The notes under the pieces are model-generated. The model searched no databases and was not told where the DNA came from. It worked only from the letters and a program-made list of their open reading frames with translations. The translations under genes were made by a program, and so were the position numbers. Source: Atriophallophorus winterbourni (lineage: Eukaryota > Platyhelminthes > Trematoda > Plagiorchiida > Microphallidae). From it: 64,000 nt of DNA. This document shows, in pieces, positions 14,633-37,830 of this stretch; the first letter of the stretch is position 1, and the number at the start of each line of letters is the position of its first letter. Location of the stretch: positions 62,001 to 126,000 of the forward strand of contig JACCGJ010000269.1 of NCBI GenBank assembly GCA_013407085.1, in the 5' to 3' direction.

Positions 14633-14689
14633 TCATCGGGGTCACGCTTTATCATTATGAAACGTGGTTTTGTTGGTAAATTGCAGCTT

Positions 14690-15410: not shown

Positions 15411-15764
15411 TGGCTGGGTTTTTCGTGAGACAATAATTTATGCATTATGTTGATTACCAATTGAGAATCAAGGATCCTTTTTAGCGCAAACATTTAAAGT
15501 AACACTTTAGAATGATAAATTTAGAATGAGTCGACCATCTCCAAATATTATCTTAGAACACAGATGGAGCACATTACTATCCTATCACTGATGCTTCGGT
15601 TGTGTCTGTTTTAAAGAATCGCGCATACAGATCTTAATCGGCAAAAATATTCGCATTTTCTTCATGCTTGTTTCACGCTTGTGTTTGGCTCTGCAAACCA
15701 AACAATTTGCCATGATAAATTTAATTATACGCGTCCAACCAAGACAAGCACCCCTTAAAATTTG

Positions 15765-16270
15765 AATCAAGTCATAGGAAACGCAATTATAATCCGACCA
15801 ATCCAATATCACATTTCCGACCAAAATATCGCCGTTACTATTAAGCAGTTCGTGTATGTTTATTGTGTAAACTTTTACACCCAGAAATTGACATCTAAAG
15901 AAATTCTCTACAAATAAATGTTACAATTTCATATTGAATAATATTGCTTTGATCCCACTTACTTATAACCATTTATTCCCGATTGACACACATGGATTTA
16001 AAAAAAATATTGCAAACATTTATTTACGACCTACATTTCACATCTCCATTTCAAAATTTGTCGCAGTTTCACTCCTCTTTTAACCTGATAGATGCTGACT
16101 CTAAATAAAATTTCGTTTAAGTTTTATAAAAACATTCATTTCTATCAGGGATCGTTTGGTGTTTATCCGGAATAATTCTATTTTTTTGTAATATATTGGA
16201 TAAAATTCCAACCATAAAAACGCAGCTAAACCATGCGAAGAATAATACATCCCGCAGACAACAATGCAAC
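15765..16270 (+). repeat. Diverged older copy of the 4712-5245 segment
   Basis: Right of the breakpoint the sequence still aligns with 4712-5245 and 10235-10770, but at an estimated 80% with many small gaps. Shared markers include CCATTTATTCCCGATTGACA, CATTTATTTACGAC and CATCCCGCAGACAACAATG. This indicates an older duplication that predates the near-identical units. Part of it is the CR1 C-terminal relic. Confidence 0.75.
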
Positions 16271-17042: not shown

Positions 17043-17226
17043 ATGAATCGTTTACTCATTTTCGCATTCACCATTGCAGTTCGTAAGTTTTGCATTAACT
17101 TATCTCATATATTTGATATTAAATCTTAAAGTAACTTAAAATTTTCTACGTAACTTAAATTTATATTAAAGCTCGCTTTTAACATACATGATTTAACACA
17201 ATTGCAGCTTTTGCTTTCGGAGAAAT
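17043..17226 (+). CDS. MEG exons 1-2: signal peptide
   Basis: Exon 1 (17043-17082) runs from the ATG to a GTAAGT donor and encodes a basic N-terminus plus a hydrophobic core, MNRLLIFAFTIAV. Exon 2 (17208-17226, 19 nt) shifts the phase from 1 to 2 and adds PFAFGE, where signal peptide cleavage is plausible. The intron is 125 nt. The preceding AACAAAAAA context suits a start codon. The product is inferred to be secreted, as MEG proteins of esophageal gland and other secretory tissues are. Confidence 0.8.
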
Positions 17227-20200
17227 GTAAGTTTTCCCAAACAAAATTTTAAATATGGAACATATTTGCACATTTGCATGCACTTCCATCACACACACAG
17301 GCCACGACCGGTTTCATTCTGTTCTTACTCATCAACTGTGAATAGTAGGTTCAGTAAAACATTTTGTTCTATTGCCTTGATAACTACAATCTGCTTAGTA
17401 TTGTGTTTGTAAGTTGGGTATTCAATAGCTGCTCATGAGACGACCGGCTGCACGAAGTCAGCTCACCAAAGTGATTAATACGAAGAAGTGTTTGTGAATA
17501 TTTCCTCATGCAAATCTCATTCATTTTCTAATATAAATTCAATCAAAACTTCATCTCAATGTGATTTCATTTTTATATAGTTAATAGCGTTTGAACAACT
17601 ACGGTTTCTATGTAGCAAGCATAACTAGTTCAACGAACGTGTCGAAGTATATTTCGCTAGATTAAGCTCTGCGGTTCATCTGATTTATGCAGTTCTGTTT
17701 TGTTAATTATTACAACCGCATGAATTGAATTTCCACATTACATGGTTCTACCATATATGAACCTATTTATTTGGGAAGCTGTTATTCTAAGCTGGATTAT
17801 GATAAATTTTATCATTCAATAATACAAACATTGCTACTAGTTACAGGATCATTAATCTATAATTCTGGTTTCAACAAACCGTTTCTAGTTTCAATCACCA
17901 AATTGTATAGTGATTAATTGAAATTTCATAATATGTTGCCAGATAAGAATGTTATAACAATTGAATATTTGATTCTCATTGGAAATTCTTTTTTATACAG
18001 ATGGCCCACTGAAACAGATGTGTGAGTTCAGTAGACCGATGCGATTTTACCTTTGATTTACAAACATATAATCAGTATTAATTTTATTGCAGTTACGATC
18101 TTCAAAATAAACTGTAAGTAATAATATTGTCATTTTCATTTCCACATTAAATCGAGAAACATAATTAGGTTTCGAAGCTATTGTTGGAAACCAAACTTAT
18201 TGTCACTACCTGATCTACACCCGAAACCCTACCCGGGTAATTAACATGTATAAACGTCCTGTTATGGAATATTCCATTCAAGCATGGGTACCATGGTTGA
18301 GGAAGGAGATCGAACTACTCGACAGGATTTATCATCGTGCTACAAAGTTGGTCCCACGGTACAGAAATTTGCCTTTCACAAAGCGAATGTTAAAACTGAA
18401 TCTACAAGATGTTGCCCAACAACGGGTACGTAGTGACCTCCTGTTGACATTCAAAATCCTGCATACTGAAAACCATCCCCTTAAACACTTGCTAAATCCC
18501 AATGGCCTTACTCGAACACGAACAAATTCAAAGGCTTTAGGCATTCCGCATTCTCGTTTGGATATTCGTCGTAATTATTTTTCGTTAAGAATTTGTTTCA
18601 CTTGGAACTATTTGCCTGAAGAAATCACACGATCAGAATCTGTTAAGGTTTTCGCTTCCAAACTCGAAGAGGTTATGACGAACCATGCGGTATGTGACTG
18701 TCCCTATTAATTTTTGAGATATTTTATATTTTCTATATATTCCATATACCTTGTCATCCTATGGTTATTGTTAAGCTTACTGCTTTTTCTACCATAAAAT
18801 TTTCTGAGTTTCTGAGTTTCTGATGAATTCAAACAACCAGAAACCTTTTGCCTTGTGTAGTTGAGGAGGATGTAAGCGAAACATTAAATCGAGAGACAAA
18901 TTTGAACATTTTTTTCTCGCAACATAAATTCGGCTCTGCTCACTGACAGTATAATATTTTTTTGACTGATTTTGTTTCATTTTATTTCCATTTATCAATA
19001 ATAATTGATCTTTGACAGAATAACTATTCAACGTGAAGCGTGAGTTTTAGTTTTTTTTAAATCCAGCAAAAAATTTCTACAACAAACTTCCAGTCACGTT
19101 AAAAATAAGTACCTGAATAAAGCATAGACTAAATATTATATTATTATTATTATTATTATATTAAATATTATTACATATTGAAAATGTTGGTCATGTTTCA
19201 CTTCTGACACAATATCTTTGTCAAACCATGGATGTAAGATTTAAAATGGCAGTTTGTTGCCAAATCAAAAGCTACCTTAAATAGACGTGTGAGATCGGGT
19301 CGAAAAAATCCACTTTTTACATGTAGGTGCAGATGCGACCAGCATCCGCTGCCCGAATAGGTGCGCCATCAACGTGCACATTAGTATTTGTGCACGATAA
19401 TCCTATGCCGCTGCCAAACCGAACACTTGATTGTGTAGATGTCTATCTAAACCATCTTGCTGACCGGATTCGACAAAGCGTTTGCTATTTAGTACTGACC
19501 CCCTTGCGCTGGCGAAGTTTTTTAGCCAAATTCTGCTCTAACTCATTCATTGCAAACACCGTTTCCACAAATATAATCAGATATTACTTTGACAATAAAT
19601 ATTAAAAACTGTCATAAATTATTTCAATGTAATAGTCAAAAATAAGATACCGTGTTTCTCCATTACGTCAGTTATATTACCGTGTTAATAATCTTCGAAA
19701 CCGCTTTTCAGTTGACACATTCTTATTGTTTGTATTCGGCATTTAGTATTTTGAGAGACCTCAATGTTTAACCAGCATTAGGAAATTTTCATGATTATTT
19801 CTAAGTTCTAGAAGGTTTGATAATTTAATTAGGCAGATGGGGCAACTTATTATTCGCAACTTTATTCATTTTTTATTTTAATGAACCTGTTATAACAATT
19901 CTCTGTAGAATCGGTTGGAACTATGCATGCTTGACACGATAGATTTTTCAGAGATGTAATGCTAATAAATGGTTTCGCATTTCATGTTTTTAACAGAATT
20001 AAATGTGGGATGGAGAGTGAGTGTATCCCAATTATGTGGAAATTATTCGTACTTTTGAGTATAACTTTCATTAGTGAAATTGGGAATCCAAATGATAATA
20101 CAAACTGACACCGTCAAATTTGTCGCTGATGTGAAATATGCATTACGCTTATACAAATAGGTTCATGAAAGAATTTCAATGAATGCTGCATCTAAATCAT

Positions 20201-20573
20201 CGCCTAAATTCTAAATTGTTCGAACTCAGCCAATACAAAACATTGTATAATTTACAATATTCAAATCAAATTTTCGCAGGGATGCCACCGTGGATAAGGT
20301 TGATAATACCAACTGTAAATCGCATTTACCACCAATGTAAATAAGGATGAACGCTGTTAAATGCAAATTCGATCGTGGGCATACCCCATTTGATTTTTGA
20401 ATCGTGGTTTTTATTCCAGGAAAAACAAAGCCTAAGGACGGTGAGTTTGGCAGAGAATTTACGAATATTAGGAACAAATTATGTGAACAATTGACAGCAA
20501 CGTGAGTATCAATGAATGACAACCAATATAATAAGTAGAAACCACATATATATATATAATAGCATATATATAT

Positions 20574-20609
<36 letters not shown>

Positions 20610-23600
20610 GCCTCCTTCGGTCGATGTCCACCATGGATGTACATCGCAATTGCGTGTTCAGCAGCTTTTAGAATGACTAAACTGTCCGATTCTGGAGGAA
20701 CAATCTCTCCTGCAGCGATGGCAATGAAAGTCACAACTCGGTTGTATTGCATTAGTTGCACGCCGCCGGCGTGATCTGCGTTCGGCAGCCAAGAGATATA
20801 TCTGCTCCTCCTCAGCTTGCAGACAATGCTTTACAAAATGCCTCCGATGTGAGCGGTCAAGAGCAAGTTCTTCCCAACTCGCAGGGTCAATGACCAAGCC
20901 AGCGCAAAAGGCGCTGTCGCAATAGGGTGAACATGCTCTGTAGACCAACATTTAATCACATACGTGATTAAATATTGCTTGTTAAAAATGTTGATATTAC
21001 ACAACATCACATATTTTTTAACTATGAATGTTTGCTTCAGAATCGGACACTATAGACACTTGTAAGTTGTATTAGTAATTAGAAGTCGTTCTTACTATTC
21101 TATGGAAACTATTAATGTGTATATACTTTCTACAGCGATTATACAAATGCCATTCTAATAATGACATCATTTAAATCGGTTAAAATTATTTCACTAGAAT
21201 AATCAAAGATTTCCAAAATGAAAAAAAACCAATTTGTTATCAAACTACAACTTTGGATTTATCTTGTTGAATTTGCAATTTTATTTGATGAGGCTTAAGT
21301 AAAGTACTGAATCGCAAATAAATAATTTGATAGAGACCTAATGAAAGGAAATGTTAACTATTACTAATAGCTCCATATAAATTTCTGTATTTAGTTATGA
21401 GAAAGTGTTTGAACCAATTATGTATGCAATTCAATCCACATAAGAATGTATTGCTATTCGGACAGATTCTCTCAGTTGTCTGTCAAAGTCGAAATATTTT
21501 GAACCCAGCGAAAGAAGACGCTTTTGAAAACATACTAAAGCTTATTTTATAGCAAATGTGAAGCTTTACGGAAAGCGTAATTGATCGAAATTGACCGTCG
21601 GAAATACACTTTTATATTTTAATTGAAAATTCCCTAATGTTGTTTTAAAGATCACCAGATAATTAAATTGATTTATTTACAAGCATTTAAATTCTGATTA
21701 CAGGTTCGGTAACTCCCAGAGAATGTGACTTTTAATGAGAATGATAATATATTTTAAATTATATTAATAATTACCTATTGATTTAAAATGTGTGATTACT
21801 ACCACCGTTGCTTCTACTACGAAAAAGACTTTGTGAAACCTTGTGAGAAATGGGGTCTAAACTACAAAGAATACCTCCTAGGGTTTTACTCGGTTATCCT
21901 GTCACGTGGATGGGATGCGATTGAATTATTTCGTTACCTTTAGCTCAAGTAATGTTCAAGCGTTCAGCTTCCGAAAAATATATTTTCAAAATGCCAATAA
22001 TTTCTGGAAAGTAAAATTTGATTAATTATTCACTACATATTCCAATCCGTTAGATGGTCATCTGCTTGTCGATTTTGTACGAAGCTTAGTAATCGAGAAA
22101 TATGCCGTAGCGTTTTTCAACTATATTGAACCATTTTTCGAACATTTGTATTTAGCACGCTTTACCAAGCTTTGTAAGTTGCATCCAAAGTTAATTTGCA
22201 TCGTCATGATCATTAAATCATCGTCATTATTCTAACATATATACAAAACTGTTAATGTTGAACACGCGATAACACAGTGTCGGTCCCGAAAACGATTAAA
22301 TTTCAGAGCGAATCTTATATTAAATTATATTAGGTAATTAAAAATATAGTCTTTTGAGCTGTTTGAATATACAGTTGTAAAAATGATAAAAATGAATTGA
22401 AAAATCGCAAATGATCACCAGCGATGCCGGCAAATTGTCGACTCGTCGTGAAGAAACTTACAATCATAAGTGTAATATAGGTCCTGATCAGTTAACTTAT
22501 AACTGAGTTTGGCTATAGAGGATATTATGCATTCCTCAGAAAATTTCAGTGTTTAAGTTGTTACACTACATACACTTTTATATTAACAATATATATATAT
22601 AACGATATTTTAAAACGAATAACAAAATAATGAATTTATTTTCAGTGAAATGGAACATAAACCTCGGTGAGTGGGTATTATTTAGAATTCACAGATTACC
22701 ACTGGTACAAGTTTACCGGATATCATTTTGCTCACTTCATATAAATAATAATAATTTAATTCTTGAACAACAATTCATTCGAATTTTTCCGAAGTTTGAA
22801 AAAATTTCTAACTTGATGGATATTCCAAATTATTTCTTCATCATTCACAGTATATAATTAGTTCAAACGGTTCCTCTTTTTTCCAATTTACAGTATGGAC
22901 CGCCTATTTGCGCAGTATGTAACGAGTAAATTATCAATTTTGGTGCTATAGATTAAAGAAGTTGACAATATTTATTTTCATTTTTAACAGCTTCAGTTCC
23001 AATAAGCTCGAGTGAGTTTAGTGGAGTAAATTACTTTTTATTATATAAACCATAATATTTTTATTTGAAATGGAGCAAAATCATCTTTATGAAATATATA
23101 AATCAATTTTTCCGCTTGTTTACAGTATTATAGATAAAACACAATTGTGAGTATTGTTGATTATCATAAAATATGTATACCTAAATGAAGTACCAATAAG
23201 AAATTTAGGAGCATATATGGCATTAGATGTTCAGGTAACTAACTTAGATAATTGTGTCGGAATATTATCACTCCATGAGCTTATGCTGTCCCATTCCAAA
23301 CAGCGCACACTTAACATTATCTATACTAAGCTTTGCATAATTCAAAAATTTTCAATGTCATTGTCATTTGAATATTCCGCAAATGCGAACTGCTCAATGA
23401 TGAAATTCTTGAATTGAGCTCACCATAATTTGGATCTTTCGGAATACAACTATTTTTCATTCTGATGCAGCGAGCGTAGGTGTCGCTTTAACATTAGGAT
23501 TGATATGGACCTTAGACCAGCTTTAAAAAGATCATCCGCATTTGTTTCTTTGTCCATTCACCATATATTAAAAATACGACTGATGCCTCCTAAATGAAAA

Positions 23601-26600
23601 GCCATCACCTTCGGATCCGTGTATTGCGTGGTTGGCTTAAGATTCTGTTGATTTAATTAAATCATTTGAGACCTATACAATAATCTTAGTCTTCACAATC
23701 CACTTGCGGTTGCCCCAAACTAGGATGTGTTAACCAAACAAAATGGCAGCTGCTCTTCCAAGCCTCTTCCGCATCAAGCGAGAGGTAATCCGCGAAAGTT
23801 GGACTAATATATGTGAAATGATGCACTGATTTGAGCTGTTAGTATTTGACAGTGATATTTGTATACGATCCAATCTCTTGATGCTAAATTTCAGCCAAAA
23901 TGCTTCGATGGCCGACGTAAAACAGCTCATTAGTGACGGGAGGTGTTCTTGGGAGTAAACTATAACAGCTGCATTTTAGGCAAACAACAGGTCACCGATT
24001 AGCACATTCCATACATTTGCTTGTGTTATCGACCGGTTAAGTTTGACAAGCTTGCCATCGCATGCTTTATGTTCCCAAGCTCCATCATCAGAGCAAAATA
24101 AAAGCTGAACAGCGTGATAGCAAGTATACCTAATTCTAAAACCTGGCGAATTTAATTGGCTTCTAAATTGTAAATTTTTAAATGACCTTCTGTCCAGAAC
24201 GGAACAAAACAACTAGTTTGTTTGGTATTGGGGGTAACATATGCAATTAAGTATTGCGAAAAGTTCCTCCTTGTCGTCGCCAAATAGATAAAAAAACATC
24301 TTATTACGCCGTTTTCACAAGATTTTTTGAAGTTTTCTCGGGGGAAGACCATGTCAATAGTTGATCTTTTCCTGCGGAAGAAACATTGATTTTCGGAATG
24401 AAATCTACCATCTCAAACTTGTTTCCTGATGTGTACGATTTTGACAAACAATTTACCTACAACATTAGGATAGGACATTACTCTGTCATTCTTGTTGTAG
24501 CATCGATCAGTCGTATTCTTAATTAGCGTGATCATCTTGGTATCGTATTTTGGGGCACACCTTCTGCCAGCACTGAAGAACAATCGAAGGAATGACTACG
24601 TTATTTCTGTTTCACAGTGTTTGATGAGCTCAAATGGTAGCTAGTCATTTTGTTTAAATTTATGGAAAATATTCAAACTGATATTACGTCAAAACACAAA
24701 GCTCATTTAGAAAGACGCATAGTTCGAGAAAATCAATAACATCTGCACGTGTTTGTAACGCAAATTATGTTTTATAAATATCAATCTCAACGTAGTAAGC
24801 CGATTGCAAAGCATTGTTCTGAAAGTATCAAAGACATTGAATAAGTGATATTTTAATTAACGTCTATGAAACTAAATTTTCAACGTTATTTCCAGGGCTG
24901 GACTTCAGAGAGATTAGTAAGTTTTATTTGGAGGCATATTTAAATAAATCTTCTTCGGTCCACGTTTTACCATCCATTACCTACCAATTTAATAACGCCG
25001 ACGACGTGTAACTGAACGGGAACGGCTTATCGATGTGTGGGTAGTTTGAGAGATTGTTCCTCTCGAATCGGACTATTTAATCACTTAAAAGTCGGAGGAG
25101 CAAATAAAAACATGCGACTCCGATGCATATACAAGGTGGAGATCGACGAACGACAACAACGAATGCCAATTTCAAAGTTACATTTAAAATATGTAAAGTT
25201 AAACCACAACATGATTTTGGACCTTCTTGCTAAATTAAAGATACTGGCCATGACACTAACAACATTTAATTTACAACATTTCAAGTCTAATCCACATATT
25301 CAATTCTTCAAGACTGATTGATCCTTATAATTTATAAAGAATTTCAGTGAATGATTAAGTATAAGAAAGAAGTTTTGAAATGAATTATTAAAAAATGCTT
25401 ACTTGAAATTAGGGAAAAAATGTAGCACTAAATTCATACATTCCGTTCAAAAATTTACTATCAGAATATCTTCATATCATGGTTCAAAGTGATTCAAAGT
25501 GATTCAAAGTTGTAATGGTCTGAAAAGCATTTAGCTTAACAATAACCATAGGATGGAGTTATGAGGTATATACAATAAAAAAGAAGAAGAACAGGGAAAC
25601 TCATGTAGTGTAAATCGTATCAAAATTTGGGTTGTCTCTCAAGTATTTGTCCAAATTAGTTTTAAAAATATCCAGGTTGGCTGAGTGTGTAACAGTAGAG
25701 GGGAGGGTGTTCCATGTGAAACTTACACGTACAGCATACGAATATCTTCGACAGTTCAGTCTTGAAGTGGGAATAAGCACTGTAAGTTCATGTTTCCGAC
25801 TGGCACGGGGTGGCGAGCGTGTGAAAAGTTTGGACAAGGGATGGTTAGGGACGTGCATAATATTGTACATCAGTATGAGGTCACCTCTTAGTCGATGACA
25901 GCGAAAGTCGAAAAGATTGAAACTCCTCAAACGTTCTTCATATGGTTTAGCAGCTAGTCCGGGTACAAGCTTTGTGGTTCGGTGGTAAATACGCTGCAGA
26001 AGATTGATGTCTTTCTGAATCCAGGGTGACCATCCTGAACAGCGTACTCCATAGCTGGTCTCATATAGGTGTTCATGATACGAGGTACTGACTAACTGGA
26101 GAATCTGCCGAAAATTCGTCTCAATAACGCCAATACTTGTGACGTATTTTGTAAGCCGCTTTGCACTGCAGTGAAGTCTTCAGACTTGAACTGGTCCAAA
26201 CACTCAAATCCTTCTCTTCAGTTGTCCAGACTAGTTGGTGGGACCCAAGAGTGTAGTTATAATTCACAGTCTTTCCTATGTTTAACACCTTGCACTTTCG
26301 GAAGTTGAAGGGTAGTTTGTTTCTCAGAGACAAATCGTGCAATTTGTTTAGATCCTTCTGAAACGTTTCACAGTCATCATTTGTACGTATGCTTCTCCAA
26401 AGCTTTATATCATCTGCAAATAACATAATCTTGCATTTAACACGCTCGTGAATGTCGTTTGTGTAGATCAAAAACAAAATCGGTCCGAGGACCGAACCCT
26501 GTGGCACTCCGCTCGTAATTTTAAATGATTTCGATAAAGCGCCGTCCACTCTGACTTGCGCACTCCTGTCGCGTAAATAGTTTTCTAGCCAAGCAAGAAG

Positions 26601-29600
26601 TTTTCCTGTTATCCCGTGTAATTCAAGTTTCTGGATTAAAATACTATGATTGACGCGGCCGAAAGCCTTTGGCATGTCTAAAAAAGCATGCGTGGATGGA
26701 GTAACCATTGTCCACACACTCAGTCCAGTCGTTTAAGGTGAGCAAGAGGTTAGATAGACATAAGTGATGTTTCCTGAAATCGTGCTGTTCAGTCGCAAGC
26801 AGTCTATTGTTTTCGAGGTGATGGGTGATCTTTTCCGCTACTAAACTCTCTAGCACTTTAGAAATTACTGGCAACAACGTAACTGGTCTATAGTTCGCAG
26901 CGTCAGATCGACTCCCGCCCTTGTAGATTGGTGTGATGATACCAGATTTCCGTTCCGCGAGAACGATACTATTTTCTAGCGAAATTTGGAATAACGTGTT
27001 GAGTGGACCACACAATGAGGATGCGCATCGTTTGAGGATGAAAGGAGTGATTCCATCTGCTCCTGGTGACTTTGCTGTATTCAAACGAAGAAGTCTGAGC
27101 ATGACACACTTATTGTTTATGGAGATTTCATTTGGTATTTCATTCGAAAAGCCGATCGAAAGCGGCGTAAGATGCACTGATTCCTTGAGGCTAAAAACTT
27201 TGCAGTAGTAACCTGCAAGAACTTCAGCAGCCTCGAACGCAGTCGTAGTTAGACGATGAGGTGTGCGTAGTGCTGAGATTCCCGGCTTAATTTTTGATGT
27301 AGCGTTAACGATCTGGTACAGGACTTTGGGATTCCGCTCCATTATGGTCAGCAGTCTTGTCTGATGAGATTGCTTGCCCTCGGTGATAAGAGAGGTGACC
27401 TTGTTCCTCAACAGACGATATGATTCCCAATTATATGGCATCGGATTCTGGACATAGTTTCTCCATGCATCGTTGCGTATCTTAATCCACTTCCTTATGC
27501 GGCTTCACAACGTGAAGGTTAATCGTTTTTTCGCTGTCTCAGGCACAAATCTGGAATGTAGGTTTATTTCATCACACAGATTCTCTATGAAGTATACCCA
27601 AGAATGATGCACGTCCGTGGTGTCTGGTTTCCAGTCAGAAATCGTTCGGAGAGCATTGTGAAGACTTCCAATATCCAGTTGTAGTTTTGTTTTGTTGATG
27701 TCGTTCATTCTCTCAGCTTGACAAACATAATCGAATAAGAGGACCAGGTGGTCGCTAGAACCCAATGGAGTTTCGTAGCCGAGATTTTCGACGGCGTGTT
27801 CCTCACTCGTTGGTATTAGATCCAGGACGGATGGCATGTTACCGTCTCTATATCTAGTGTTATCAAATACGTGGTTATAAAAAGGAATATCAAAGATCAG
27901 TTCTTAAAACGCATCGTCGAGCGAATTCGTCGGAAGAGCGTTTTTCTTCATCAAGTTTGGAAGGTTGAAGTCTCCCATAAACAGGAGTGGCGTTTGAAAT
28001 CTGGCAGCTAGAAGTCGAAATTTCTGGAGTAGTTTAACATTGTGCGCGTCACTTGCGCTTGGAGCCCGATAAATCACGCCAACAATGCAATCATCTCCAG
28101 TTGTCAGCTTTATTGAGTACCACAGAGTATCCTGTACACGTAGGTCAATATCTTCAATTTCTCTGCAGGATAACTGTTGGTTGTAGTAAAGTGCTACGTC
28201 ACCGCCGCGTCCCGTACGGTATTGACGGAGAAGAGACATTCCTTTCAATGCCAATTCATTGTCTGATAAATGAGGTTCAAACCATGTTTCGGTAATTGCA
28301 ACTAAGTCCGGTGAATGCTGTGTACATACGGTATCAAGCTCCTGTATTTACACAGCACTCACCGGACTTAGTTGCGAGATAAATATGGTCGTAGGTTTTC
28401 AACAAAAAAACACAATATAAACAAAGATGTATAAACAACCTGCTTTATAAAGCTCTTTCGAAATGTGTTACGAAACATGTGATCGAACCCCGATCAAGCC
28501 TATCCACCGATTTTTGACTATCGTTGCGAGCGCTGCCATGAAGATTGTTGCTCCCGAATCAGACTGTTTAGGTATTCGAAAAGCTGTGGCAAATCAACCA
28601 ATCATGCGATTGTCATGTACATCTATGGTTTACATCGTACGAAGTTCTACATGTTTTACTAGGTCAAGAATTTTCAATTCATTGTATGAGTATGACCAAA
28701 TTCGATTCAGCTTAATAGACTTTCGTCACTTTGATTTTTGTAAATATATTTCCATAATGTGAAATTTTCCATTGTTCCAAAAGTTTGAAAGACGAATTTA
28801 AAATGTGAGTGTGTATAAATACAGAACCAGTTTTGCAATGTTCTCAATTTTGATTGAATTCAGCATCCATTGCCTTGCAAATGTAAAACTCGAAGAATTA
28901 TAAACGTTTTCATAATGTGAATGCAGTAACCTTTACCGATTTTTTTTAATATTTTAATAAATGATAAATAACATGTTTTACCAAACTTCAGTACAATATA
29001 TCCCATGTTAATCCGCTTACTTTAATTGAACATTACGGTGAAGTTTTCAATTGTAAATGAGGCATTTGCGTAACGAAATGGAATTGATACCACATATGTG
29101 ATTAAATATTGCTTGTTAAAAATGTTGATATTACACAACATCACATATTTTTAAACTATGAATGTTTGCTATAGAATCCACAAACAGAAAGTTTGGTGAG
29201 TTGTATTAGTAATTAGAAGTCGTTCTTAATACTCTATGGAAACTATTAATGTGTATATACTTTCTACAGCGATTATACAAATGCCATTCTAATAATGACA
29301 TCATTTAAATCGGTTAAAATTCTTTCACTAGAATAATCAAAGATTTCCAAAATGAAAAAAACAATTTGTTATCAAACTACAACTTTGCATTTATCTTGTT
29401 GAATTTGCAATTTTATTTGATGAGGCTTAAGTAATGTACTAAATCGCAAATAAATAATTTGATAGAGACTTAATGAAAGGAAATGTTAACTATTACTATT
29501 AGCTCCATATAAATTTATGTATTCAGTTATGAGAAAGTGTTTGAACCAATTATGTATGCAATTCAATCCACATAAGAATGTATTGCTATTCGGACAGATT

Positions 29601-32600
29601 CTCTCAATTGTCTGTCAAAGTCGAAATATTTTAAGCCCAGCGAAAGAAGACGCTTTTGAAAACATACAAAAGCTAATTTTATAGCAAACGTGAAGCTTTA
29701 CGGAAAGCGTAATTGATCAAAAATGACCGTCGGAAATACACTTTTATATTTTAATTGAAAAGTCCCTAATGTAGTTTTAAAGACCACCAGATAATTAAAT
29801 TGATTTATTTACAAGCATTTAAATTCTTACTACAGGTTCCGTGACTACACGGAAATGTGAGTTTTAATGAAAATGAAAATATATTTTAAATTATATAAAT
29901 AATTACGTATTGATTTAAAATGTGTGATTACTACCACCGTTGCTTCTACTACGAAAAAGACTTTGTGAAACCTTGTGGGAAATGGGGTTTAAACTACAAA
30001 GGATGCCTCCTAGGGTTTTACTCGGTTATCCTGTAACGTGGATGGGATGCGATTGAATTATTTCGTTACCTTTAGCTCAAGTAATGTTCAAACATTCAGC
30101 TTGCCAGATTTTGCGTAGTACAGCGGATGTATTTTTAATTAAAGTGACACTGGCTTGGGCTGTATACATTAACCGCGTTTATTCATATCGCTTTATTGGA
30201 TTAAGACCATAAAATAAAAAAATGTTCAATGACAAAATATAAATGTTATAAATTAAAGTTGTTTGGAAAAGGGATTAAAGCTGCACGAATATCACAGCAA
30301 ATTATTTCTAAAAAGGAAAACATGAATGGAAAATAAATAATCATAATATCTGTAATGTGAAACTTTATCATCGTTCCCTCTGCAATTCACATTATTTTTT
30401 GCTCTTACCATAGTTTGCTCATATATCGTAGTTTGTGAGTTGATTATTCTAAAGTATTAATTAGCAAATGTACATCGCCAAATGCACGTTAATTCAAACT
30501 GTTTTTCGTTTTAGGTCGGTGGCCCAAGGAGATATGTAAGAACCGTTTAATTTCGGTGTTCACTCCATCATCCAAATGCATTTCAATATTTCTTTGTAAA
30601 TCTCCTTCACAGTGAAAAGTTGTTAGAGGAAGTGTAAGTCATAACAGTCTATTTCTGATTTTCCATTTATATGATGAAAAGTTCATATTTAAATTCGAGT
30701 GTTGTGGAGTATTCACACACACGGACGCCGTTTTCATTTACGTACACACGTAACGTAGTTATGGTTTACTGATACTTAATCGTCGACACTTAAACCCTAG
30801 AAACTTAACCGCCAGACATTTAATCCCCAGACATTTAACCCAAAAGTCACTTCATCCCCAGTCACTTAATCTTCAGTCAGTCAGTTTGATAACTTCTGAA
30901 GAATCCGCATATTTCAGCATCTTTCTTCGTCTGTTTGATATGAACCCCACCACTTGTGTGAAGAACGGAGACCGTATGCTTTCGGCAATCCTTTCGCAAA
31001 CCGCTAAGAAATGTCCACATGGTGGAATGTTGGCAAGAAAAGAGTGACTGTAATGCATCATTCAACGGCACAATCATGAGGCGTAAACCATCGTCTGCCT
31101 CATTATCTACTTTCATCTTTCGTCTTTTTCTTTGCATGTTATGACATCTCGAGCAATTCAGCGATACTCAACTACAGAAAGATTGACTTTCTCAAAATCA
31201 GAAGTTATCAAACTGGGGATCAAATGTCTGGTGATTAAGTGTCTAGGGATTAAGTGTCGACGATTAAGTGTCTGAGGATTAATTGTCTGACGATTAATTG
31301 ACAGGACAGCCGCAGATATATAAGAAAAAACATTAATTCCAGCTGTGCACACAGTCTTCGTATTTGCGAATAGCAGTTGTTTCTATACAATTATCTATGC
31401 TAAAACATGTGGCGATGCATTATCCATAGTAATTGAAATCAAGTGCATATTTGATTCTTTAAAGATAATTGGCAATTTTCGATTATCAGCCTTGCAGGAA
31501 ATAAGTGAGTAATGCTTTGTGTATTTTGCACGTTTTTTCGGAATGATGATTCTCATTTCTCATTGAGAAAATCCAGGAATTGCAAAAGTTTTCTTGTCAT
31601 TAAACACGCATGTTTGACGTATTTATAAAAGCAATTGTTTTATGTTAATGCTAAAAACTGCATGCTTTATTCCTGATTGTTTCCTTTAAGTCTTCCTAGT
31701 AAGTTAATAGGTTTACCAGGGAATATTGATAAACTCTTCAGAGGAATATGCTATTCGAAAATCGAAAGCAGACTTGTAGATCCTAAACAAACTCAGATAG
31801 CGTAGATAACTGCGAATAAAACCGCATAAAATATGCTTCACCGTAGACGGAACAATATAAATCAATAAAAATAGTTCAATGCTACGTCAACGTTGGAATG
31901 CAATGAAACAATATTGCTTGTCCAGCGAAGAACATTCACAAATTCAGAAAACTTATTTCACCGCGGATTTTCAAGGATTCAAGGATTCATGGTTATAAAA
32001 GTTAATACTTTACAACACCACAGGATTATGGTATGAATAAAAACATGAAAAATACAATGGTGTGAAAGCAATAGAGAATATCAAATATAAGGCTCAAGAA
32101 TGATGTTTGTTTGCAAGTGCAAATCCAATTTCGCTTCAAAAATCGCCAGGCAAGGAGAGTCCACTACATGTTGGGGTAGGGAATTCCGAAGAAATATAGC
32201 ACGTGCGGCGAATAAAATGGCGCCGACAGTCAATACGGGAACTTGGAACGTAAAGGGATAAGGTATGACCGCGTGTCACTTGCCCGTCACACAAATTAAG
32301 TAAGTGTTTTAGTGTCCTTTAGTATCCACAATTCTATAGGTCAAAATAATGTCGCGTCGTATCCTCGTTTGGATAGAGTCACATAGACCCAGATGTCGCA
32401 ATCTTTCGGTGTACGGAACATTGCGAAGACCTATCACGATTTTAACGAAGAGAGCAATATCCTTTCGCAGCCGAAAAGCCCAGTCCTCTACCGCATACTC
32501 CATCGTAGTGCGAAGGTAGACATTCATTATTCTTGGTAACGTTACCAGAGAGAATCTTCCAAATATTCTTCGAAGGATACCTAACAATCTGTTGGCCCGT

Positions 32601-34160
32601 CGATATATATTCTGTCAGTACACAGTTTTCGTTTATGTTTCCACTAATCCACACTCCAAGATCTTTCGTGGATAATTTTGATAATGTGATAATCATTATG
32701 AGATGGACATCACTTCTAAAGAAACATTGATACTAAATTTCGGAAATAGCCAAATTCATCAACCCTTAATGACGTCAAATTCTGCAGCGGTATCTACAGA
32801 GTTTAAAATGATCAAGGAATAACTGTAATCAGTTGATAGTAAGTGAAACATTTGAGCAAAATGAAAGCAATAAACAAAGTTCGCTGCGTAAATTTGTGTG
32901 CCATAATAGAACGACATCTCATATATTCATCCAGTAAAACTATTTGACTAATATTGAGGGTGGATTTCATGAGTAAATGAGAATTGGCAAACTGAATTTA
33001 TTTCCATGTGATACCTAAACTTGAACTACAGAATTGCTTTTACGAAACGTCTGTGCCAGAGGCGAGATGATACCAAAATATGTTAACAGATGCATAGCAA
33101 ATTTTTATTTCATGATAAATAACAACGTTTTCGATTAAATTCACCATATTATCATGATAAACATATTTTCGATTGGCGTTCAGTTGAACTTGCTGAACCG
33201 ATTGATAAACTCATTAAGTTCTTCTTCTGAATAGACGGCAGGAGGACTACAGTCCGTGAAAGCCGCTTCACCTCCCGTGTCTCTGCTATCTCAGCGTAGA
33301 TTCCTCACGAGGAGTTACTGAGCTGGAAGAGTAGGCGAATCGCGCAGGATAGCGGGAAGTTCACCGTCCAATATGCGTTTAAACTGCTCTTCGGTGACTG
33401 CCCCAATTGCATCAGCGGAGAGTGCATTCCAAATAATGACCACTCTGGTCGACAGAGTAAACGATGGCTTCAGGTGTTCCGTTCGGCGCTTCTGCAACTT
33501 CAGCGAATGACCTCTAGTTCTGGAGTCCGTGGATACCGAAAAGAAATGTTGAAGTTCCGTTCCGTAATATCCAAGCAGGATTCTCCGCGTGACCAGCAAA
33601 TCATATCGCATTCTTCGATATTACAGTGGGAATAGTTTGAGTTCCCGCAATCTGTCGTCATAGGGAATACGAAATATACCCCTCACGCACTTGGTAGCCC
33701 TTCTTTGGACTTTCTCCAGTCGATCCTTCTCCCCTTTTGTTAACGAATAGTTCAACGGAAGCCAAAATTCTGATATTGGTCTGACGTGAGAGCTATACAG
33801 AACTTGAAAATCTTTGGGATTTATCTCTAAGAAGGATCGTCTCAATGCCCACCACATGCGTGTGTGCGTTTAAAAGCTACATGATGGGATGTATATTTTC
33901 GCTACTGAGTCTTATCAAATAATTGAAATAATTTGAATTTCCAGGTTGGAACTCCTGGACGTCTTGAGTTAGTAAGTGCATAAATGTCTTAATGTTATTT
34001 TATATGTTCGACACATTATAACAAAAATGTATTTGTTTACAATAGCGATGACGCGGATCGCTATCTGTGAGTTTATAAAATCTAAAATTTAAAAGTGTAC
34101 ATTGTTAAATATGCAATAAAACTATTTTTCGGTTTCTAGAAATGAAGCATCGGAGAAGTT
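17043..34160 (+). CDS. Micro-exon gene (MEG) encoding a small secreted protein; 3' end not defined
   Basis: Exons I support: 17043-17082 (MNRLLIFAFTIAV), 17208-17226 (PFAFGE), 18001-18021 (WPTETD), 18093-18113 (YDLQNK), 21041-21061 (IGHYRH), 21704-21724 (FGNSQR), 22156-22173 (TLYQA), 22646-22666 (EMEHKP), 22894-22914 (MDRLFA), 22991-23011 (FSSNKL), 23126-23146 (IIDKTQ), 24896-24916 (AGLQRD), 29175-29195 (IHKQKV), 29836-29856 (FRDYTE), 30515-30535 (SVAQGD), 30613-30633 (EKLLEE), 33945-33971 (LELLDVLS), 34046-34066 (DDADRY), 34140-34160 (NEASEK). Each follows a T-rich AG acceptor and precedes a GT donor, mostly GTAAGT or GTGAGT. From exon 3 on every exon is 18, 21 or 27 nt and enters and leaves in phase 2, so any subset can be joined in frame. 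This is the known architecture of schistosome MEGs, whose variable secreted products come from exon skipping. The exons together spell a signal peptide followed by hydrophilic, charged segments. Introns range from 71 nt to 4.3 kb. No terminal exon is secure. I cannot assign a MEG family number. Confidence 0.85.
18230..18825 (+). mobile_element. 5'-truncated CR1 element in a MEG intron
   Basis: An uninterrupted 154-codon frame (18246-18710) encodes the C-terminal end of a CR1 reverse transcriptase: MEYSIQAWVPWLRKEIELLD, IYHRATKLVPRYR, and IRRNYFSLRICFTWNYLPEE. It ends in a 3' tail of TTTCTGAG repeats at about 18798-18825. The subfamily differs from the unit 2/3 element in sequence and tail motif. 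It lies in the MEG intron between 18113 and 21041, in the sense orientation. Confidence 0.85.
18826..19996. other. Intronic sequence with no supported feature
   Basis: Part of a MEG intron. A plus-strand open frame at 19327-19605 has no recognisable domain. A (TAT)n microsatellite lies at about 19134-19165. CATTAAATCGAGAGACAAA at about 18883 resembles CATTAAATCGAGAAACATA at about 18146, on the two sides of the CR1 element. It is not adjacent to the element's ends, so it is not a clean target-site duplication. Confidence 0.4.
19997..20501 (+). CDS. Possible additional MEG exons (20, 21 and 4 nt)
   Basis: Candidate exons are 19997-20016 (after TTTTTAACAG, before GTGAGT), 20420-20440 (after TTATTCCAG, before GTGAGT) and 20498-20501 (after TTGACAG, before GTGAGT). 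They are individually asymmetric (phase 2 to 1, 1 to 1, 1 to 2) but together total 45 nt and restore phase 2. They would read IKCGME, KTKPKD and Ala, with no stop. The first two have good splice sites. The 4-nt exon is the weakest. The known exons on either side also join in frame without them. Confidence 0.4.
20520..20609. repeat. (TA)n microsatellite
   Basis: Long ATATAT runs broken by short interruptions. They directly abut the 3' end of the zinc-finger retroelement fragment on the minus strand (20610-20955) and may be its simple-repeat tail. Confidence 0.8.
20610..20955 (-). mobile_element. 3' end of a non-LTR retrotransposon with a C-terminal zinc finger
   Basis: The minus strand reads WEELALDRSHRRHFVKHC, LAAERRSRRRRA, and then DFHCHRCRRDCSSRIGQFSH followed by SKSC, a C-C-H-C finger typical of the C-terminus of RTE-like and related LINEs. 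It ends with a short TSMVDIDRRRP-like tail region near 20620. Related pieces are at 25030-25095 (+), 28480-28700 (+) and 40130-40345 (-). Only the last ~110 codons are present. Confidence 0.7.
20957..21985 (+). repeat. MEG two-exon segment, duplicate A
   Basis: About 1.03 kb holding the micro-exons 21041-21061 and 21704-21724. It recurs at 29093-30110. Introns and flanks match at roughly 95% or better by eye, for instance throughout 21070-21300. The two exons match far less. The second exon here has a weaker donor (GTGACT) than its duplicate (GTGAGT). Confidence 0.9.
23500..24890. other. MEG intron sequence with no supported feature
   Basis: Intron between the exons at 23126 and 24896. Several short frames exist on the minus strand (23730-24352), but I recognise no domain. 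I looked for further 3n micro-exons with good splice sites and found none I can support. Confidence 0.4.
25030..25095 (+). mobile_element. Zinc-finger fragment of a non-LTR retrotransposon
   Basis: The plus strand reads LRDCSSRIGLFNHLK, the second half of the C-terminal finger seen at 20610-20955. The remainder is too degraded to follow. Confidence 0.5.
25470..28375 (-). mobile_element. Nearly full-length CR1-clade retrotransposon in a MEG intron
   Basis: Minus-strand element whose 3' end is at about 25480, with (TTGAATCACT)n tail repeats. Its 5' end is at about 28375, where a 27-bp snap-back inverted repeat sits. It carries both the endonuclease and the reverse transcriptase. It lies antisense inside the 4.26-kb intron between the exons at 24896 and 29175. 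A second copy of the same subfamily is at 44602-46270. Confidence 0.9.
25601..28300 (-). pseudogene. CR1 endonuclease/reverse transcriptase, frameshifted
   Basis: Endonuclease segments: NELALKGMSLLRQ and YRAPSASDAHN, then FMGDFNLPNL (28254-27904), and GSSDHLVLLFDYV with the SDH motif (27837-27505). Reverse transcriptase segments: APGADGITPFILK and NYRPVTLLPVISKVLE (27441-26644); motif A FLDMPKAFGRV, motif B SGVPQGSVLGP and motif C LFADDIKLW (26717-26121); C-terminal NLFDFRCHRLRGDLILMYN (25930-25601). Frame breaks fall near 27870, 27490, 26690 and 26110. The KAFDRV part of motif A reads KAFGRV here. It is a dead copy. Confidence 0.85.
28480..28700 (+). mobile_element. 3' end of a zinc-finger non-LTR retrotransposon
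   Basis: The plus strand reads FDYRCERCHEDCCSRIRLFR followed by YSKSCG, the same C-terminal finger as at 20610-20955. A TSMVYIVRSST-like tail follows. Confidence 0.6.
29093..30110 (+). repeat. MEG two-exon segment, duplicate B
   Basis: Duplicate of 20957-21985 with micro-exons 29175-29195 and 29836-29856. Introns are almost unchanged. The exons differ from their counterparts at 12 of 21 and 7 of 21 positions and encode IHKQKV versus IGHYRH and FRDYTE versus FGNSQR. Both keep length, phase and working splice signals. Confidence 0.9.
30772..31305 (-). mobile_element. Degenerate MULE-type DNA transposon with inverted arrays of 15-bp repeats
   Basis: About seven degenerate 15-bp repeats (ACATTTAATCCCCAG type) lie at 30772-30880. 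About six copies of the reverse complement (GGGATTAAGTGTCTG type) lie at 31213-31302. A 19-bp stretch is perfectly inverted between the two ends (30775-30793 and 31250-31268). Between them the minus strand encodes a transposase remnant. The whole is only about 530 bp, so it is an internally deleted copy. It sits in the MEG intron 30634-33944. Confidence 0.75.
30950..31137 (-). pseudogene. MULE transposase C-terminal remnant
   Basis: The minus strand reads LNDALQSLFSCQHSTMWTFL then SGLRKDCRKH, and further on SGGVHIKQTKK. This matches the general pattern of the C-terminal helical region of MULE-type transposases (N..W..ALQ..., HPTxWxFLxxLRKD, then a basic KKxY-like segment). The catalytic DDE core is missing. 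Identification rests on recalled family pattern, not on a search. Confidence 0.6.
31490..31504 (+). CDS. Possible 15-nt MEG exon
   Basis: After GATTATCAG and before GTGAGT, 15 nt read LAGN in phase 2 and leave phase 2. The acceptor lacks a strong pyrimidine tract, and an alternative acceptor 8 nt downstream would give an in-frame stop. Splicing from 30633 straight to 33945 is also in frame. Confidence 0.3.
   Translation, partial: PCRK
31965..32800 (-). mobile_element. 5'-truncated CR1 fragment in a MEG intron
   Basis: The minus strand reads KDLGVWISGN, LGILRRIFGRFSLVTLPRIM, TMEYAVEDWAFRLRKDIALF and TERLRHLGL, the C-terminal third of the CR1 reverse transcriptase, with frame breaks. It ends at a (TTGAATCC)n tail at about 31970-31985. 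Confidence 0.8.
33200..33870 (-). mobile_element. CR1-like C-terminal fragment, different subfamily
   Basis: Two minus-strand frames, 33857-33621 and 33611-33315, are split by a frameshift. They read SSHVRPISEFWLPLNYSLTK, RLEKVQRRATKCVRGIFRIP, YDLLVTRRILLGY, and a C-terminal IIWNALSADAI segment. The order matches CR1/Jockey C-termini, but the sequence is clearly different from the other CR1 copies here. Confidence 0.75.
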
Positions 34161-34639
34161 GTAAGTTTTCGTAAATCTGTAGTGAATAAATGCAAAAATA
34201 TAACAGGAAAATTTTATAGTAAAAACGGACAAAGGAACGAACTCACGATAAGTGAAAATTCAACGCAAATGTCCAACGCAAATATCCACACACAAAAATA
34301 TTCCAGCTCCAAACTCCGGTGTGTCGCGTTGATCAGCAGTTATAATTGACGAAGCTGAAAATATGGCGCCAAGACAATTTTGCTGTTAACCGTCGTGATT
34401 CGCAAACACGCAATAATACAGCACCATGGAAATCAAGCAGAATAGGAAAGCACGCGTAAAAAGTTTATTATGGAATTATCGTTGATTAAAACAAACATAT
34501 GAGGAAATGGAAGAGCAATTGAAAAGAAAGTGAAATTACAAGTCGCTACAAATCTCCGCCTCCATTTTTTTTGAAATAATAGAGGTAGAATTAGCAAATG
34601 CGATATAAATTTGTTAAATATAGTTGTTCATATCTGGGT

Positions 34640-35580
34640 AATAATAAAAGCAAATCTAAATGCTTTGACTGATGTCGAACTTCGACACGAGGTAAAAGTG
34701 TAGCGTGTGGGGTAAAGACAGGCCGGGCCATTTCAGATCAACATTTGGCAATTGGCCTATAACTAGCAAATTATCGACATTCATTGGTCCAACAGTAACA
34801 CTGGAACAAAGGTTTATTGCAGTAAAAAAGCGTACAAGCCTAAAATAACAACTGCAGGATGGTATGGTATTTAATAAAGCAAGCAAAAGTGAAAAGATGA
34901 AGCGAGTGTCATAAGAGGATAATAGAACAATAGTTTTTGTGGCGTAGAAGCATAGCTTAAAAAATCACAGGGTGTTATATACAGTGCGGTGAAAATAAAA
35001 CAGGGAGTATCATCTAGTACGGCGGCGGGGAGGCCATATAGCGGGCCACACTCGCTTGGAAATTGCGTCTACCCGAATTTGCGAGGCGGTAGCAGGGGAA
35101 ACGGAGGCATCGCGGTTACGTTAGACTTGTAAACAAGTGAAACAGTAAGTTAAATGTAGTACGTGCGTGGCATCAAGGGGTTTTTGTAATGGGGTTCTTG
35201 GGGAAGGAGTCGATTCTGTGTTTAAACACGGTTAAGGAAGGAGCCGATACCACATCCTCTGGTAATTTGTTCCAAACAGCACAAACACGCACATAGAAAA
35301 AGTAATTTCGGCAGTTGATACAGGACTGTTTCAAGCAGTCTGAGGGAGTGACCGCGCAAATGCGTTGTCTCGGTATTGCGGGAGAATAGGGAAAAGCACG
35401 GGTGGGTGGGTGAGGACATGATCTGATGGAGATAGATAAGATCACCACGGGTCCGGCGATACTGCACAGAAAACATTTTCAATATTTCCAATCTTTGGGG
35501 ATATGGAATGAAGAACAATCCTCTGACGTTCGGCGGTACAAACACAAACAAAGAGTAACAACGTTGCACGAACGCATCTC
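34640..35580 (-). mobile_element. CR1-like C-terminus with long 3' UTR
   Basis: The minus strand at 35569-35173 encodes, with one frameshift, IPYPQRLEILKMFSVQYRRT, RGDLIYLHQIM, and NYFFYVRVCAVWNKLPEDVV up to a stop near 35173. The ~530 bp beyond (to about 34640) has no frame and appears to be a long 3' UTR, including an AATAAA-containing stretch near 34810. A subfamily distinct from the others. Confidence 0.65.
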
Positions 35581-35779
35581 ATTTGCGTCTTGATTTCTCC
35601 GCGAGTTCAACCTGTCCAACGCTAATCGTGTTCGCACACGAATTCAAGAACATAAGAGACGCTTATTAGCCAAAGGCGTTTATTAACCATTGGAAAAATA
35701 ACGAAACACGCCTATCTTACATAGACAGAGCAAACAAACATCCTCACGCATGCACGTCCCGGTTGTTAATTCCATCTTA

Positions 35780-36065
35780 TTTTGTCAGTCGATTTCGTGC
35801 CAACCGGTACATTTCAAGACATCGCCACCCTGAGCCCCTTGGGCCGAAATCAACGAATTGCATGCCCTTCAATTACGGCTGACGTTGTCCATCATTCCAT
35901 AGTTGCGATGTTGTCACACGAATTGTTCAATTGGAATCCGCCGCAAACTAAAAAAATATTACAAACTCGGATTTGTCGTCGTTGGACTATTCTGCGCTTC
36001 TTGCTCTTTTGTTGTGTCGGAGGGTGGAGTTATGCATCCCATTTGAAAGTTCGTGATTAACAATA
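35780..36065 (+). repeat. Unidentified dispersed coding-like repeat, copy e (open frame)
   Basis: The best-preserved copy, with an uninterrupted frame at 35782-36060 of 92 codons. It contains ITADVVHHSIVAMLSHELF in the middle and LRFLLFCCVGGWSYASHLK near the end. Segments of it recur, broken, at 29-215, 2225-2450, 6745-6960 (minus) and 12270-12487 (minus). I do not recognise the protein. Multicopy occurrence makes a transposon-encoded or processed origin more likely than a host gene. Confidence 0.5.
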
Positions 36066-36225
36066 GTCGCGGCACAACTACGCATTTGTTATAATGAAAA
36101 ATGTTATCTGAAATATTCAAGTTCCGCCCCATGTATGGCTAGTATAACTTCTTTCTAGCATATGCGAACTAGTAAATTGGATGATACATTGTCTCAAATA
36201 ACACATGTGTTTTCCCCACACACAG

Positions 36226-36251
36226 GGAACGTATCGCACAATAATCTCTAC
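36226..36251 (+). CDS. Possible terminal MEG exon
   Basis: After TTTTCCCCACACACAG the phase-2 reading gives ERIAQ and then a TAA stop at 36242-36244, which would close the MEG frame after 34160. A GTGAGT follows 26 nt in, so it might instead be an unrelated chance exon. No polyadenylation signal close by supports it. Confidence 0.2.
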
Positions 36252-36720
36252 GTGAGTCCATAAGGTTATAAATATTTGGAAAAATTACGACGCTTTTTCA
36301 ATATTTTGTAACGCAATATCATATTTTCATCCTAACTCTGACTTTTTCAACCAACAGGTACTCAAATCCACTTCGCATTGAGCAAAGTTTACGAAGCCGA
36401 ACTATCGCGCATTCACGCTGCATTACATTCATAAAATATGCATCGCACTTTATAAAATTATCGCTGGCTAACAATGTTTTTAATATAGACTGGGATTCGG
36501 TGTGGGGTTTTATTAGAAATGCTTCGAAGTGCAAAATAGTTGGCAACATTTAAGTAAAACTTATGATTTCTGACGCGAAAATGATCTCGCTTGAGGGAAG
36601 ACAAGGGAGTTTTCTCGATCCTACACGAAACATCCACAGACAAAGCTATTCAAATTTGATAGTCTTGAGAAATATTCATAGATGATTAATTGCTATCCAT
36701 ATAACCGTAAACGAAACAGT

Positions 36721-37830
36721 TTGTGATTCTTGTATTGGAACATCGTGGTTCGTTTTACGAACCCAATGTAACAGAGGAATTTAAATGTAACATTGTTTAC
36801 AACTTATCTACTGTTGCGAGCCTCACTGAACCTAATCTTACAGTCTACACCTGATGACGGCAAACAGCCAGAAAACAGTAGTGGTGTATAAGTGCTGTGG
36901 AAGTGAGCAACACATTACTTTCGTCATCCATAAGTGCCTCGAGTGCTTGACAAAGAATCACTTTTCGATTCTGTTTTAACATCGTGGTTCGTTGTACGAA
37001 CACTATGTAACAGTGGCATTAAAGAATAGCTCTGTTTAACACTTATCCGCTGTTTCAAGGCTCACTGAACCTAATCTTATTGTCTACACCTGATGACGGA
37101 TAACAGGGAGAAACTGGTTGTGGTGTGTAAGTGTGGGGGATGTGAGCAACGCATTACTTTGGTCATCCATAATTGCCTCGAGTGCTTGACCACGAATCAC
37201 TTTGTGATTCTGTGCTTGAACATCGTGGTTCGTTGTACGAACACTATGTACCAGTGGCATTTAAGTATAACTTTGTTTCAAGGCTTAATTTTTCCTAATC
37301 TTAGGGTCTCCACCTAATGACGGCAAACAGCCAGAAACCGGTAATGGTGTGAGTTGGGGATATGTGAGCAACACATTACTGTGGTCATACATAAGCGACC
37401 TGAGTGCTAGACTAATACTTTATGAATCTGTATTTTAATATCGTGGTTCGTTGTACGACCCTATGTAACAGTGTCATTCAAGTATAACTTTGTTTACCAC
37501 TTATCCACTGTTTGAAGGTAATTACTGAATCTAAAATAAGCGTCTCCAACAGGTGGACGCAAAAAGCCAGAAACCGCTAGTGGTGTGTAAGTGCGGGGGA
37601 TGTGAGCAACACTTCACTTTAGTCCATAAGCGCCTTGAGTGCTTGACCACGAATAACTTTGTGATTCTGTGTTCGAACATCGTGGTTCGTTAAACAGTGG
37701 CATTCAAGAAAAACTTTGTTTACCACTTATCCACTGATTCAAAGCTTACTGAACCTAATCTTACCATCTCCACCTGATGACGGAAACAGCCAGCAAGCGG
37801 CAGCGTTGTCTGTGGTACAGAAACTTCGTC
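36721..37830 (+). repeat. Tandem array of a ~240-bp repeat, about 4.6 copies
   Basis: The marker CATCGTGGTTCGTT recurs at about 36741, 36980, 37221, 37439 and 37678, giving spacings of 239, 241, 218 and 239 bp. Each monomer also has GTAAGTGCGGGGGATGTGAG, a GCCTCGAGTGCTTGACCACG-type stretch, and CACCTGATGACGGCAAACAG. Isolated monomers or parts are found at 316-378, 16405-16500 (minus), 48475-48590 (minus) and 58262-58450. No coding potential is visible. Confidence 0.9.

Follow-up and report, generated by a model that had tools for sequence, protein, structure and literature searches.

A probable micro-exon gene of a trematode with amino-acid change concentrated in its micro-exons, consistent with strong diversifying selection

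The window analysed here, a 64,000-nucleotide stretch of contig JACCGJ010000269.1 from Atriophallophorus winterbourni, contains a probable micro-exon gene (MEG) on its forward strand, comprising a signal-peptide exon, a 19-nt exon and 22 micro-exons located between 18001 and 34160, 19 of which are 21 nt in length (positions are those of the window and exons are named by their first base). The first coding exon (17043..17082) encodes the signal-peptide start MNRLLIFAFTIAV plus 1 nt, ends at a GTAAGT donor and is found in all six copies of the gene examined upstream. The 19-nt exon (17208..17226) finishes the signal peptide (P-FAFGE), has a last full codon that varies between copies and shifts the frame to the phase of the micro-exons. 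The chain then begins with three 21-nt exons recognized by a splice-signal scan and by comparison of copies, 18001..18021 (WPTETD), 18093..18113 (YDLQNK) and 19019..19039 (ITIQRE), followed by a 21-nt exon at 20420..20440, which has an in-frame stop in the window copy, is open in the five other copies where it is whole and is truncated in copy C64a. The next two exons, 21041..21061 (IGHYRH) and 21704..21724 (FGNSQR, with a weak GTGACT donor), belong to the first copy of a duplicated segment and are succeeded by an 18-nt exon at 22156..22173 (TLYQA) and by 21-nt exons at 22646..22666 (EMEHKP), 22894..22914 (MDRLFA), 22991..23011 (FSSNKL), 23126..23146 (IIDKTQ) and 24896..24916 (AGLQRD), the latter being the most conserved micro-exon with 2 of its 21 sites varying. 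Further downstream lie 28784..28804 (LKDEFK), the two exons of the second segment copy at 29175..29195 (IHKQKV, a sequence found identically elsewhere in C5548 only) and 29836..29856 (FRDYTE), three more 21-nt exons at 30414..30434 (LLIYRS), 30515..30535 (SVAQGD) and 30613..30633 (EKLLEE), a 15-nt exon at 31490..31504 (LAGN), a 27-nt exon at 33945..33971 (LELLDVLS), and finally 34046..34066 (DDADRY) and 34140..34160 (NEASEK), both of 21 nt, the second being the last found. In copies C64b and C8598, exon 30613 carries a stop together with an altered donor, a combination that would fit its gradual loss through skipping.

Several features define this anatomy independently of exon variability. Units of AG-21nt-GT numbered 19 on the forward strand and 0 on the reverse strand at the loosest of three thresholds, and 16 versus 0 at the strictest; the 22 micro-exons are composed of the 21-nt scan units, those of three other lengths (15, 18 and 27 nt) and exon 21704 with its weak donor. 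All share a single phase (one base, whole codons, two bases), which is open in 21/22 micro-exons with a stop in just one, as compared to 7/22 and 17/22 open (15/22 and 5/22 stop-bearing) in the other two phases. AG and GT are present at the 22 micro-exons in every copy used, leaving aside exon 20420 of C64a, the end of which is lost, and copy C1507 reads through 172 codons over 24 exons without a stop to the last exon found. The hydrophobic start MNR(I/L)LI(F/L)AF(I/T)IAVP(F/S)AFG was detected in 6/6 copies by a hydrophobicity scan only, and its resemblance to a signal peptide suggests that the protein is probably secreted. A sequence-only reading of the window had proposed a secreted, host-facing product; the signal-peptide-like start agrees with the first attribute, whereas the second is a matter of interpretation.

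The micro-exons also share a protein pattern. Among the 17 window exons of 21 nt that were scored, the residue at the exon junction and the one following it tend to be hydrophobic (means of 1.16 and 0.93 versus -0.35 to 0.25 elsewhere), a pattern that none of 20,000 within-exon permutations reached and that also holds across six copies. T occupies exon base 21 in 12 of 18 exons. As T at the last exon base is not part of the splice consensus, a protein constraint is the simpler reading. Since a 21-nt exon supplies seven residues with hydrophobics at the junction, exons could be lost, skipped or duplicated with both the frame and the amphipathic pattern intact.

By alignment, the duplicated segment consists of copy A (20957..21970) and copy B (29091..30102), both on the forward strand and each holding two micro-exons. 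Aligned ungapped, the two copies differ at 12/21 sites in exon 1 and 7/21 in exon 2, as opposed to 40 of 970 sites (4.1%) plus 2 gap columns outside the exons (Fisher p = 2.9e-14), although a free alignment of exon 1 requires 4 substitutions and small gaps that cancel in length, so the count of 12 may overstate the number of events; exon 2 aligns free of gaps. All 7 differences in exon 2 change an amino acid, and both exons together have nonsynonymous differences at 16.5 of 29.3 sites and synonymous ones at 1.5 of 6.7. A and B share the first full residue in each exon (I, F), and the following ten full residues are all different. When both exon frames were slid jointly around the alignment, no placement more than 21 bases away captured more than 13 differences, versus 19 at the exons. 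The sequence-only reading had described this inversion of conserved introns and variable exons, and it is borne out here and extends beyond the pair to the family. Its statement that lengths, phase and splice sites are kept also stands for the GT/AG bases (0/8 differ), but the exon 2 donor of copy A, GTGACT versus GTGAGT in copy B, is atypical at +5. Likewise, introns of about 95% identity are confirmed, whereas the word recent needs care: in 6 comparisons from the five gene copies with both segments, intron divergence between A and B is 3.5-6.2%, about equal to that between different gene copies. Other duplicates of the window, diverged by about 5%, hold clusters of 5-6 differences per 21 bases (range 4 to 8, the top value deriving from the diverged end, about 360 bases long, of one repeat copy), which makes exon 2 of this pair suggestive rather than conclusive by itself. 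The case rests upon the coincidence of such clusters with independently defined exons and upon the family data. One repeat family occurs near the duplicated segments, at 20655-20851, 25048-25091, 28506-28644 and 40140-40335; the copy at 20655-20851 precedes copy A by about 100 bases and may be relevant to the breakpoint of the duplication.

Within the 537-Mb assembly the segment yields 42 match rows, and the gene, whole or partial, resides on nine contig stretches, with identities of mostly 92-98% in the larger aligned blocks. Each exon is present in 16 of 21 aligned rows, which include 12 distinct sequences of exon 1 and 11 of exon 2, with intermediate forms among both and GT/AG kept. Unusual lengths are also seen, exon 21041 being 12 nt long in C8598. 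Substitution rates were calculated over 34 of the 36 pairs from nine copies, namely those with three or more comparable exons in common. Pair by pair, stop-bearing exons and exons of odd length were excluded, and because the flanks of exons 18093, 20420, 22156 and 33945 look inflated by insertions, intron flanks below 80% identity were dropped (12 of 850 comparisons). Pooled divergence was 0.238 at nonsynonymous sites (N), 0.083 at synonymous sites (S) and 0.040 in introns; N therefore exceeds the intron rate 5.9-fold (4.9-7.0, bootstrap over exons) and S 2.9-fold (2.05-4.25). Nonsynonymous divergence (dN) is greater than intron divergence in 33/34 pairs and greater than synonymous divergence (dS) in 32/34, and the contrast between exons and introns thus holds over the further copies. 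Pseudo-exons cut from introns gave N of 0.035 and S of 0.044 (segments with more than 7 differences excluded). Exons vary in nonsynonymous divergence from 0.021 (24896) to 0.447 (29175), and in exon 19019 synonymous divergence (0.190) is above nonsynonymous (0.116).

Fourfold sites, scorable where the first two codon bases are unchanged, differ at 15/542 (0.028), with 13 of the 15 falling in exons 18001 and 19019; the five exons of greatest divergence have 0/52. Codon positions 1, 2 and 3 differ at 23.9, 24.2 and 13.4%. Since the pairs are not independent, a second count took each site once across eight copies, without C4856: 130/262 sites at positions 1 and 2 are variable compared with 231/2203 in introns (p = 8.5e-48), and 0/13 of the fully comparable fourfold sites. 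A codon model fitted in IQ-TREE to 131 codons on a tree from introns gave an approximate omega (nonsynonymous to synonymous rate ratio) of 6.5 with kappa 2.0, at a log-likelihood of -1597.6 versus -1633.3 for omega 1 and kappa 2 (twice the difference, 71.5); without kappa, omega is 17.3 and the corresponding statistic 45.0.

The acceleration is limited in place and, for exon 1, in time. The signal exon is not accelerated, having 15/600 pairwise differences (0.025) versus 36/1102 (0.033) in its flanks, after the exclusion of 11/30 flank comparisons with 12 or more differences. Among older paralogues (C7446, C15053, C6770 in three places, C4601, C5717 and C2771; 28 pairs), exon 1 has 0-4 differences in its 21 sites and its flanks diverge by 0-38%; this conservation while introns diverged places the exon-1 burst in the recent past, within a young clade. 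Relative to the common older form of exon 1, eight young copies are different at 6-11 of 21 sites, C13563 at 2 and C2771 at 1. C4722 was left out of this comparison because its exon 1 could not be placed, and C5717 has no AG before exon 1, so that exon may be dead. With C4722 added for exon 2 (36 pairs), differences are 0-8 of 21 versus 0-30% in the flanks, and in some close pairs the exon exceeds its flanks (e.g. 3/21 versus 4/132), suggesting that its acceleration may be older.

Based upon these results, we consider it highly probable that the locus is a micro-exon gene encoding a probably secreted protein and that its micro-exons are subject to very strong diversifying selection, one of the two causes that the sequence-only reading had entertained. 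Exon anatomy, the existence of the copies, the rate contrast and an omega well above 1 are direct observations on the sequence. From these we infer splicing, expression, secretion, a host-facing role and host recognition as the driver of selection. Since the scorable silent sites in exons are near the intron level, exon replacement, exon-targeted mutation and intron homogenisation are all unlikely as main causes, which leaves diversifying selection.

A number of points weigh against this conclusion. Exon anatomy was read from genomic sequence, and a search for internal candidates at 34161-44160 and for terminal ones over the first 4.5 kb yielded no convincing terminal exon. An excess is lacking in the closest pair, C64b-C4856 (N 0/172.7, intron 11/1291). 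Synonymous divergence by the Nei-Gojobori method is about twice the intron rate (1.4-2.8); this may be an artefact of codons with multiple hits, at least partly, and a contribution by multinucleotide events or some exchange is possible. The scoring rule for fourfold sites under-samples replaced stretches, and the bases directly upstream of exons are slightly raised (7-8% at -3 to -5). The exchange of blocks between copies violates the single tree upon which the omega estimate depends. Some contigs may be alternative haplotypes, in which case loci and alleles are mixed. In addition, exons 28784, 29175 and 29836 of C15789 are 20, 22 and 20 nt long, which changes the frame, and stops occur in exon 20420 of the window copy and exon 30613 of C64b and C8598. 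Finally, relationship to a described, numbered MEG family finds no support: a protein search, which needs shared five-residue words and thus leaves room for a common origin, gave no match at E <= 10 among 15 candidates; Pfam and PDB likewise had no match above the cut-off, the best weak rows being E 0.075 and 0.83, respectively.

The most durable alternative is that an exon and a few flanking bases were swapped for an unrelated or paralogous exon through conversion or template switching, as proposed for ASSET. We judge this improbable as the main cause, although parts of the A/B comparison are suggestive of it. Positions 5-21 of exon 1 are no more alike between A and B than shuffled sequence (5/17, p 0.54), and differences reach up to 10 bases beyond the exon edges (6/40, two distance bins summed). 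Exon 1 of copy A also resembles an inverted stretch at about 20663-20700 (score 16), a score matched by 2% of shuffles and attained by 1 of 14 control exons. Other than this weak match, a donor scan of the window for the four A/B exons produced nothing beyond shuffles. For copy B exon 1, the one exon searched in the genome, a pattern search allowing up to 3 mismatches returned 40 sites versus 11 for a reversed control; 2 of these are exact (the window and C5548), 4 have 2 mismatches and 34 have 3. None of the four 2-mismatch sites, whose flanks were inspected, is bordered by AG and GT, and no donor emerged among the sites inspected. Replacement is further opposed by the absence of a rise at fourfold sites, the plain homology of exon 2 between A and B (14/21 identical) and the intermediates among the exon forms. 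The suggestion of targeted exon replacement in the sequence-only reading is therefore not sustained as the principal explanation.

Less credible is an old duplication in which gene conversion homogenised the introns while selection shielded diverged exons, even though the copies are mosaics and older paralogues exist. Between C246 and C5548a, the 600-base bins of 27.2-31.4 kb show 0.0% difference, compared with about 4% at 33.8-35 kb, and further near-zero bins involve C64b, C5548b and C15789. Such bins may reflect gene conversion or recombination between haplotypes, and larger blocks seem to have been exchanged between copies or haplotypes. However, conversion around exons cannot produce fourfold sites at the intron level only 1-2 bases from changed sites. 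Intron divergence between A and B stays level over distances of 11 to 400 bases from the exon, where homogenisation predicts a gradient, and the near constancy of exon 1 in older paralogues indicates that its divergence is not old. Least plausible of all is relaxed constraint or pseudogene decay, which could account for the single stop-bearing exon in 3 of the 6 copies read from the signal exon, the frame-changing exon lengths of C15789 and the atypical donor of copy A exon 2, yet decay yields the neutral rate at most, not 5.9 times the intron rate, and the copies used retain their splice sites and phase, with C1507 open as far as the last exon found; decay is thereby refuted for the family as a whole, while individual copies may be dying.

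Under diversifying selection, the data are best accounted for as follows. A conserved signal-peptide exon heads a chain of mostly 21-nt exons in a single phase. The gene was copied recently, a two-exon segment was duplicated within it as well, and blocks appear to have been exchanged among copies or haplotypes. Ordinary amino-acid-changing mutations in the micro-exons have afterwards reached fixation at about six times the pace of changes in introns, with silent sites, introns and the signal exon remaining near the neutral rate. A bolder proposal, which we regard as possible but doubtful, is that a non-schistosome fluke possesses a modular secreted family built of seven-residue cassettes, with amino-acid change at about six times the neutral rate in one young clade (at least one cassette having been long conserved before) and blocks traded between copies. 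Such a family could furnish a combinatorial, rapidly changing repertoire for host recognition or decoys, perhaps as the variable partner in a system of host-parasite matching. The introns within each copy provide a neutral clock adjoining the coding sites, which makes selection on exons of 15-27 nt measurable, something that is normally very hard. The very high gene-wide omega does not extend to the signal exon and, in the single exon whose older state is clear, is confined to a young clade. If the proteins meet the host, each exon would be a ready marker for host-parasite coevolution.

The label of MEG, applied already in the sequence-only reading, fits the architecture, given the 22 symmetric micro-exons of 15, 18, 21 or 27 nt in one apparent phase behind a putative signal peptide, but is unaccompanied by any sequence relative in the searches described above. 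In the portions of the literature drawn upon here, schistosome MEGs similarly have short exons that are mostly multiples of three, long introns and a signal peptide (PMC4350168; Nedvedova et al. 2023, PMC10526429), as well as recent duplications, nearby transposable elements and a dN/dS in the mature part above that of the signal peptide. The same portions link their raised dN/dS, highest at 1.14 and lower in signal peptides, to host immunity (Philippsen et al. 2015, PMC4350168). They differ in that S. mansoni exons are mostly 15 nt, unlike the 21 nt that predominates here, and in that the maximum of 1.14 for mature regions was obtained with orthologues, as opposed to 6.5 here with recent copies. 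ASSET in viperid three-finger toxins comprises conserved introns and switched exon segments by a mechanism called unknown (Doley et al. 2008, PMC2474615; 2009, PMC2711939). The strong difference of paralogue exons amid similar introns is shared, whereas whole segments look switched there and, here, scorable silent sites at the neutral rate (2.8% at fourfold sites) together with intermediate sequences indicate that point change under selection explains the bulk. Aphid bicycle genes (PMC9168663) also combine many micro-exons, a signal sequence, strong positive selection and an exon structure that outlasts sequence; they are an insect family of putative effectors with CYC motifs, and we claim a parallel only, not membership. 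Within the open-licence literature, as represented by titles and the beginnings of abstracts with few subscription papers, no test of exon versus intron change in micro-exon genes was encountered, though DeMarco et al. 2010 may include one.

A COX1-like frame of the assembly has Prosthogonimus cuneatus as its best match (80%) among the 120 matches listed, while Schistosoma reaches 67-70%. Prosthogonimus belongs to the microphalloid trematodes, and the genome accordingly looks to be that of a plagiorchiid trematode outside the schistosomes, suggesting that genes of MEG type extend beyond that group. On other contigs, 24 COX1-like matches with varying numbers of stops occur, suggestive of nuclear mitochondrial insertions or several mitochondrial forms.

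As for the surroundings of the gene, scans of the window with Rfam and for tRNAs (the latter using the bacterial code) were empty. Downstream, a 64-codon open frame from 36358 onward follows a good acceptor and is a possible terminal exon; 5 of 6 other copies retain the frame while differing in amino acids, the C5548a stretch ending too early. Beyond it, a tandem array of 4.7 copies of a 239-base unit occupies 36711-37800 and is also found in other copies. Upstream, 3276-16270 is taken up by tandem repeats, each about 5.5 kb long and 97% identical over 6.7 kb, the last 360 or so bases of the third repeat copy being far more diverged. Inside these repeats are two 450-codon reverse-transcriptase frames on the minus strand (7752-9104 and 13280-14632), and the nearest named match of a retroelement reverse transcriptase in the window, among the matches listed, is from Paragonimus westermani (59%).

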